This document shows, in pieces, positions 24,239-24,895 of a stretch of DNA of 64,000 nt (positions are counted from its first letter, which is position 1; each line of letters opens with the position of its first letter). The stretch is from Blastococcus tunisiensis. Lineage in GTDB: Bacteria; Actinomycetota; Actinomycetes; Mycobacteriales; Geodermatophilaceae. The position numbers were made by a program, and so were the translations under genes. The notes below the pieces were generated by a model. It ran no database searches, was not told where the DNA came from, and worked only from the letters and a program-made list of their open reading frames with translations. The stretch covers positions 1 to 64,000 of the forward strand of contig NZ_FOND01000008.1 of NCBI RefSeq assembly GCF_900112815.1. Reading direction: 5' to 3'.

Positions 24239-24895
24239 CTACCGGCGATCCGGCGCGTGCTCGGCCCGCCACTCGTCGAAGGCGGCGAGGAACGACTCGG
24301 CCATCCCCTTCTCCGTGAGCAACTGCTCGCGGTCGCGCTCGTCGACCATCCGCTCGGCCAGCGCCCCGGTGTTGAACTTGATCGCCCGGAAGTACGGGAT
24401 GAACGCCGGCGGCGTGAAAGCGCGCTCCGACGGCTGCGGCTCCACGTCCGGCGACCAGGGCGGAACGGAGACCGGGTCGAGGCCCAGCGACTCGAGGGCG
24501 GCCAGGATCGGTTCGTCGTCCGGACGGTCGGTGAAGTCGCGCGACAGCTCCCGGAACACCTCCCGCCCGTCAGGGGCGACGGCGAGGACGACCGGCTTGA
24601 AGATCCCGCCGCGCTCGGGGTTCCAGACATCGAGGGGCTTGGCCAGCTGCGAGCCGTCCGGATCGCTGACCCACCGGAACGGCAGGTGCCAGGTGCGGTT
24701 CATCGCGAGCTGCACCTCCGGCGGATCGGTGGAGGCGAGCACCACCTCGGTGCCGGAGTCGGCGAGCCGGGACAGCGACCGGGCCAGGCGGACCGCCTGG
24801 GCGCAGCAGTACGGCTACCAGTCGCCGCGCAGGCCGATCAGCAGCAGGGCGGCGCGCTCGTCGGAGCGGAGGGCGAGCAGGTCGGCGGGGTCCAT
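24239..24895 (-). CDS. Putative selenoprotein: AhpC/TSA-like thioredoxin-fold protein with in-frame UAG as selenocysteine
   Basis: The frame runs from ATG 24895 to a terminal TAG at 24239. An in-frame TAG at 24817-24815 is codon 27. Reading through gives 218 residues with IGLRGDW-[UAG]-PYCCAQAV, placing the UAG exactly where relatives have the catalytic cysteine of a CPYC-type motif. The rest (VVLASTDPPEVQ, FRWVSDPDGSQLAK, VWNPERGGIFKPVVLAV) is a good peroxiredoxin-like thioredoxin fold with no other damage. A hairpin with a GGUC loop follows 18-34 nt from the UAG, as in bacterial SECIS elements. Selenocysteine coded by UAG has been reported in Geodermatophilus and Blastococcus. The alternative is a pseudogene with one nonsense mutation, or translation only from about 24745. 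Confidence 0.8.
24784..24800 (-). promoter_or_regulatory. SECIS-like hairpin downstream of the in-frame UAG
   Basis: On the minus strand CCAGGC and GCCTGG pair as a 6-bp stem (7 with one more G-C pair) around a GGUCC loop. Counting the U of UAG as 1, the stem spans 18-34 and the GGUC loop is at 24-27. In E. coli fdhF the loop GGUC is at about 22-25. The loop bases and spacing match what SelB recognises. Confidence 0.7.

Follow-up and report, generated by a model that had tools for sequence, protein, structure and literature searches.

How should a UAG codon be read when it stands at the active site of an otherwise intact gene for a thiol oxidoreductase? The usual codon for selenocysteine is UGA, and UAG would ordinarily end translation. 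In the window analysed here, a stretch of 64,000 nucleotides from Blastococcus tunisiensis, a single in-frame TAG at codon 27 interrupts such a gene. An earlier note had pointed out this frame, and we recover it as described, on the minus strand, which that note omitted. The comparisons below indicate that its product is very probably a selenoprotein of full length, with an AhpC/TSA fold, the activity of a thiol oxidoreductase or peroxidase, and the active site U-P-Y-C.

Use of UAG for selenocysteine in Geodermatophilaceae has been known since 2016, and a UAG-containing AhpC since 2017. Excerpts of PMC5330540 describe a tRNA-Sec with the anticodon CUA in three Geodermatophilaceae genomes and credit Mukai et al. 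2016 (Angew. Chem.) with the UAG-Sec formate dehydrogenases and UGSC-motif selenoproteins of this family; UAG for selenocysteine in Blastococcus is also cited in a passage of PMC5133445. The AhpC in question, with a Sec-TAG and a bSECIS, comes from Blastococcus saxobsidens DD2 (Santesmasses et al. 2017, in the same excerpts of PMC5330540). The present analysis adds a family-wide tally of the gene, its counterparts with UGA or Cys, and indications that the codon switched from UGA to UAG within the family.

The reading frame and its active-site codon

Both strands were read. The frame runs from a start ATG at 24895-24893 through the UAG at 24817-24815 to a terminal TAG at 24241-24239 (Table 1), with 191 further open codons after codon 27. 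The surrounding motif is GDW-UAG-PYCC, which places the UAG on the Cys of a W-C-P-Y-C motif, as had been proposed, and more precisely on the first of the two Cys in a thioredoxin-type CxxC. Homology was also said to continue past the TAG without a shift, and the AhpC-TSA model PF00578 indeed matches residues 16-109 across the UAG with 42.6 bits (cut-off 26); the match to the Redoxin model PF08534 spans it as well (28.1 bits against a cut-off of 26.6). Of the seven AhpC/TSA matches in the Blastococcus tunisiensis genome, six are free of stops, the exception being that of the window gene. Ordinary gene finding would yield either 26 residues or a start after the UAG, and the expected truncation can be seen in the mechanical list of open reading frames, which holds just a 168-residue fragment beginning downstream of the UAG.

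Table 1. Positions of the gene and of its predicted elements in the window
Feature	Position	Strand	Remarks
Predicted selenoprotein CDS, peroxiredoxin-like (AhpC/TSA)	24242..24895	minus	218 residues if the UAG of codon 27 is taken as Sec
Predicted selenocysteine codon, an in-frame UAG (codon 27)	24815..24817	minus	column is UAG in orthologues, UGA/Cys in homologues
Cys30 and Cys31 codons (U-P-Y-C-C)	24803..24808	minus	unchanged across the alignment of 24 orthologues; UxxC partner residue is Cys30
Predicted SECIS hairpin	24784..24800	minus	7 bp, GUC loop beginning 21 nt after UAG
Terminal UAG, presumed stop	24239..24241	minus	half of intact orthologues also end in TAG

Selenocysteine machinery of the genome

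The genome scanned comprises 5,036,776 bases in 43 contigs, and the tRNA-Sec model finds seven matches in it at E <= 0.001. The best of them scores 69.1 bits in Rfam (gathering score 47), is classed as tRNA-Sec and carries the anticodon CUA; the six weaker ones are tRNA-Ser (three), tRNA-Tyr, tRNA-Leu and tRNA-Met according to ARAGORN, and a tRNA-Sec with the anticodon UCA is not among the seven. The gene of this tRNA is located on contig 26, with selD on one strand, selA-selB on the other and the tRNA between them. The earlier note had proposed a search for these three genes and for a tRNA-Sec reading UAG; the single tRNA-Sec found reads CUA, and all three genes are present beside it with scores above the curated NCBIfam cut-offs: selA (TIGR00474) 418.6 bits against 267.9, selB (TIGR00475) 279.4 against 242.25, and selD (TIGR00476) 389.4 against 125. 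The motif of SelD itself contains Cys, not Sec.

The window gene shares its UAG with other genes of the genome. Two formate dehydrogenases (FDHs) of the TIGR01553 type read QARI-UAG-HS at the Sec site, each with a predicted GGUCU loop 18 nt past the UAG, and two UGSC proteins read D-UAG-GSC, giving at least five UAG genes under searches with AhpC/TSA, two FDH models and UGSC.

Could the codon be read as an amino acid other than selenocysteine, be it pyrrolysine, a residue brought by a suppressor tRNA, or Cys or Ser carried on tRNA-Sec? ARAGORN labels the tRNA 'tRNA-Pyl' owing to its CUA anticodon, but Rfam scores the same molecule as tRNA-Sec, its gene stands between selD and selA-selB, and PylS was not found, TIGR02367 giving no match at E 1e-5 anywhere in the genome (as a control, this model has matches in 8 of 14 named genomes, above the cut-off in one). 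Pyrrolysine is rejected. Misloading of tRNA-Sec would be compatible with the sequence; the Sec sites of the FDH and UGSC genes, however, are UAG as well, and we consider incorporation of any other amino acid very improbable.

Orthologues in Geodermatophilaceae

Thirty of the 112 family genomes surveyed, spread over 5 of the 12 genera, carry the peroxiredoxin-like gene (Prx), and codon 27 is TAG in every one of the 30, which leads us to reject a stop arisen by chance. Its close named relatives belong to Geodermatophilus, Blastococcus and Modestobacter, in agreement with the earlier impression that the DNA resembles the Geodermatophilus and Blastococcus group; 16 of the 17 named loci share an exact 399-base stretch with genomes of the survey and were not counted as independent. 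Neighbouring genes were examined for hints of function: with up to 3 kb taken on either side, four of the 17 named Geodermatophilaceae loci have the upstream neighbour and none has the downstream one, and we therefore claim no operon. Intact frames are found in 28 of the 30 orthologues, and their final stops are divided equally between TAG and TGA (14 each). The second TAG of the window gene had been taken for a terminal stop that only context could set apart from a recoded codon, a reading with which the 14 orthologues likewise ending in TAG accord.

Downstream of the UAG the intact orthologues are under purifying selection, with a median dN/dS of 0.33 over 378 pairs. In the two remaining orthologues, which come from different genera (L065 in G104 and L066 in G029), one C is gone from a CCC run just 3' of the UAG, and the remainder of the frame is put out of phase. 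Their distal part is nonetheless as constrained as that of the intact pairs (median dN/dS 0.33 and 0.26, respectively, against 0.33), which points to a recent loss or to an assembly error. The two are not sisters on a quick tree, and their union in a single clade is not rejected (p-AU 0.389). Both the patchy distribution of the gene and the frameshifts in 2 of its 30 copies count against the selenoprotein reading.

Patchiness would also agree with a regulatory role of codon 27, in which the UAG serves as a stop, a 26-residue peptide is the main product and readthrough is marginal. Release factors are known to compete with selenocysteine insertion, and such competition would favour this scheme. 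Set against it are the clear purifying selection on the distal part of the gene and the fact that most of the fold is encoded after the UAG, and we accord a regulatory stop only a very small chance.

Homologues outside the family

A profile built from 24 orthologues was searched against 396 genomes of the phylum and matched 39 of them, with 43 matches including that of the window. The Sec column was read in 29 homologues from other actinobacterial families: 25 have UGA there, and four have Cys (TGC). The 13 further matches, judged by listing alone, have one TGA in four cases, two TGA in one and no stop in eight. An alignment of homologues at this column had been suggested to see whether it is Cys or UGA elsewhere, and in the homologues read nothing other than UAG, UGA or Cys occurs in it. 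The nearest homologues (L085, L086 and L096) are UGA genes from two other families; their N-terminus is likewise short, and they too have UPYCC. A distant relative in Azospirillum has Cys at the Sec column. The results that the earlier note had regarded as fatal were the absence of selB or selC, a tRNA-Sec reading UCA only, and a column that is neither Cys nor Sec; none of the three turned up.

A tRNA-Sec was found in 21 of the 23 homologue genomes checked, in 22 copies, every one of which has the anticodon UCA. The two genomes lacking a match are G295, which has a Cys copy, and G391. The latter carries a Cys copy and a Prx copy with one TGA (C66, C113), and yet has no tRNA-Sec match; it is a draft estimated at 82% completeness, and the lack may stem from incomplete assembly. 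A UGA copy in a genome without a tRNA-Sec match counts against the selenoprotein reading.

A quick tree of 58 protein rows (28 UAG, 25 UGA, 5 Cys), computed with the Sec column masked, unites all UAG rows in a single clade (SH-aLRT 100) that adjoins UGA rows, and at least four changes of codon state are needed over the tree as a whole. Because the branches are long, we make use of the UAG clade only.

A nonsense mutation or sequencing error in a Cys-type gene, to which the single-base deletions beside the UAG in two orthologues might lend the appearance of decay, is ruled out by the conservation of the UAG across genera, being identical in 30 of 30 genomes and five genera, and the conserved distal part (median dN/dS 0.33) and the UGA or Cys in 29 of 29 homologues read leave a pseudogene next to no probability.

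Synonymous constraint and the predicted SECIS hairpin

What could distinguish the UAG of codon 27 from a UAG that ends translation? The 33 bases past codon 27 are near-frozen across the 28 intact orthologues, reading CCS TAC TGC TGC GCC CAG GCG GTC CGY CTG GCC. Mean codon entropy in degenerate columns is 0.25 bits over codons 28-38 (7 columns) against 0.84 bits elsewhere (77 columns); this is the lowest-entropy sliding window of the gene, and only 14 of 100,000 random samples are equally low. Degenerate columns with an invariant residue show the same pattern: a single codon is used in five of seven such columns over codons 28-39, in 2 of 42 over codons 40-218 and in none of 12 over codons 1-26. 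The constrained codons 28-38 overlie the predicted hairpin with its GUC loop.

The 26-nt stretch of the hairpin has an MFE of -11.9 kcal/mol. According to the part of PMC13188914 that sets out bSECIS rules (Fig. 2 legend), the loop has 3-9 nt with a G in its first two positions, the upper stem has 4-16 bp, the distance from the codon is 16-37 nt and the MFE is at or below -7.5 kcal/mol. The hairpin after codon 27 conforms to these rules, which are weakly specific. Its folding energy does not differ significantly from that of shuffled sequences (z -0.9 and -1.1). When the same loop rule is applied to the 283 TAGs that the two strands of the window contain, 11% are followed by at least seven contiguous pairs, and of the 14 terminal TAGs of orthologues six are followed by at least eight. 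As the energy is not significant and the rule is weakly specific, our case is built on the synonymous constraint and on the homologues. The stem is nearly invariant in the UAG clade, its sole variable pair changing from G-C to G-U, hence there is little covariation signal. In 18 of the 25 UGA homologues GGTC is kept at the same place, within a stem of another register and sequence.

Long hairpins also occur downstream of some terminal TAGs, in orthologues such as L048, L051 and L061, and are perhaps transcription terminators. The presence of a hairpin by itself is therefore no mark of recoding, and it is the conserved hairpin after codon 27 that is likely to discriminate between a UAG for selenocysteine and a UAG for termination.

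By the known pathway, SelA would turn Ser-tRNA-Sec with the anticodon CUA into Sec-tRNA, using selenophosphate supplied by SelD. SelB, bound to the hairpin directly 3' of codon 27, would bring the Sec-tRNA to the UAG, at which the release factor would lose; at the terminal UAG, which has no conserved element of this kind, translation would end. From this pathway we infer the binding of SelB, the selenium in the product and its redox activity. The selenoprotein interpretation of the earlier note draws support from the codon itself, the CUA anticodon, the sel genes, the conservation, the synonymous constraint, and the UGA and Cys counterparts.

Fold and expected redox centre

An AlphaFold2 model of the protein, with Sec modelled as Cys, reaches a pLDDT of 87.8 and a pTM of 0.85. 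Its best 50 matches in the PDB are peroxiredoxins, AhpC2, Bcp4 and AhpE among them, the top match having an E of 1.3e-6 and the TM-score being about 0.5 by query length. A sequence alignment with protein disulfide isomerase puts U27 at the first Cys of the WCxxC motif. When aligned with a classical peroxiredoxin, U27 lies on the Ser of SxxC, and Cys30 on its Cys, the peroxidatic one. The classical (T/S)xxC motif is not present, as U27 replaces the Ser of SxxC, and membership in the SelL-related redox proteins (NF040769) was rejected at 16.3 bits against a cut-off of 120. We would expect the redox centre to be a U27-C30 selenenylsulfide, with a peroxide or a disulfide as the substrate.

Relation to known selenoproteins

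The closest known case is the DD2 AhpC, which in the passages of PMC5330540 devoted to it resembles the window gene in being an AhpC with a UAG Sec site, a downstream bSECIS and a tRNA-Sec with CUA. Of eight AhpC/TSA matches in Blastococcus saxobsidens DSM 44509, only the window gene's orthologue contains a stop, and the DD2 AhpC is therefore very probably the same orthologue. That report concerns one gene of another genome, whereas 30 orthologues together with UGA and Cys relatives are considered here. The FDH and UGSC proteins of Mukai et al. 2016, as the same passages present them, share the tRNA-Sec(CUA) and the UAG but belong to other enzyme families.

A table of PMC9312934 offers two further parallels. 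Its Prx-like thiol:disulfide oxidoreductase selenoproteins (pfam00578) have the AhpC-TSA domain and UxxC in common with the window gene, a likeness drawn from a table description; the word 'UAG' is absent from the main text of that paper, whereas the window gene uses UAG. Its TxxU Sec peroxiredoxin is also a peroxiredoxin selenoprotein, with Sec as the last residue of TxxU rather than the first of UxxC. Among the matches listed in a search of the open-licence literature we found no family-wide tally of UAG-Sec Prx, and passages of PMC10778597 and PMC7609411 contain nothing on this case.

A proposed change of selenocysteine codon within the family

How widely does UAG serve for selenocysteine in Geodermatophilaceae? 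At E <= 1e-9 a tRNA-Sec is matched in 108 of the 112 genomes, with 110 tRNAs in total, of which 102 have the anticodon CUA and eight UCA. By genome, 100 have CUA only, seven UCA only (genera g5, g6 and g7), one (G058) has both and four have no match; the UCA-only loci are L009-L014 and L017. The FDH model TIGR01591 mainly returned stop-free frames in the family, and the UAG genes came from TIGR01553, for which, among the matches listed, all 13 long Sec-site matches and all 32 N-terminal halves contain one TAG. The UGSC search gave, among the matches listed, one TAG or no stop in each case and TGA in none.

Three genomes of genus g7 (G071, G073 and G074) have an FDH with TGA at the Sec site, CNRT-UGA-HAPSV (L126, L273 and L274). 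A tRNA-Sec(UCA) is present in G073 and G074, and G071 shows no tRNA-Sec match at E <= 1e-9. Given the tRNA-Sec(UCA) of g5-g7 and the UGA at the FDH Sec site of g7, the family appears to span the switch between UGA and UAG, with the proviso that g5-g7 are represented by draft genomes and that their FDHs are of another type than those with UAG.

We hypothesize, with somewhat better than even confidence, that the family preserves a change of the Sec codon affecting its whole selenoproteome: mostly CUA tRNAs with UAG in FDH, UGSC and Prx genes, three genera with UCA, one of these with UGA in FDH, and one genome with both CUA and UCA. The Prx gene would then go back to an ancestor in other actinobacteria that used UGA, its codon having changed with or after entry into the switched lineage. 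The two additional g7 genomes with UGA at the FDH Sec site make this slightly likelier; the direction and the timing of the change are what the comparison of sequences suggests. If so, Geodermatophilaceae offer a clean natural case in which UAG replaced UGA as the Sec codon while still acting as a terminator of the same gene in half of the intact orthologues. Since relatives hold UAG, UGA or Cys at one and the same residue, they could serve as matched material for the adaptation of SelB, SECIS and release factors to a change of the Sec codon.

Two loci of the family stand apart. In G079, a genome with a CUA tRNA-Sec, an FDH match contains an in-frame TGA (L227 / L237 / L275, C12:812469-814946); the match starts beyond the Sec site, no Sec-site motif was found in the surrounding DNA, and the gene may be a broken copy. 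In G058 a second tRNA-Sec, with the anticodon UCA, exists beside the CUA copy (L008 / L238, C17:1173-1263), for which horizontal transfer or dual decoding of selenocysteine are possible explanations; some frames in its stretch were recognised by eye as transposase-like.
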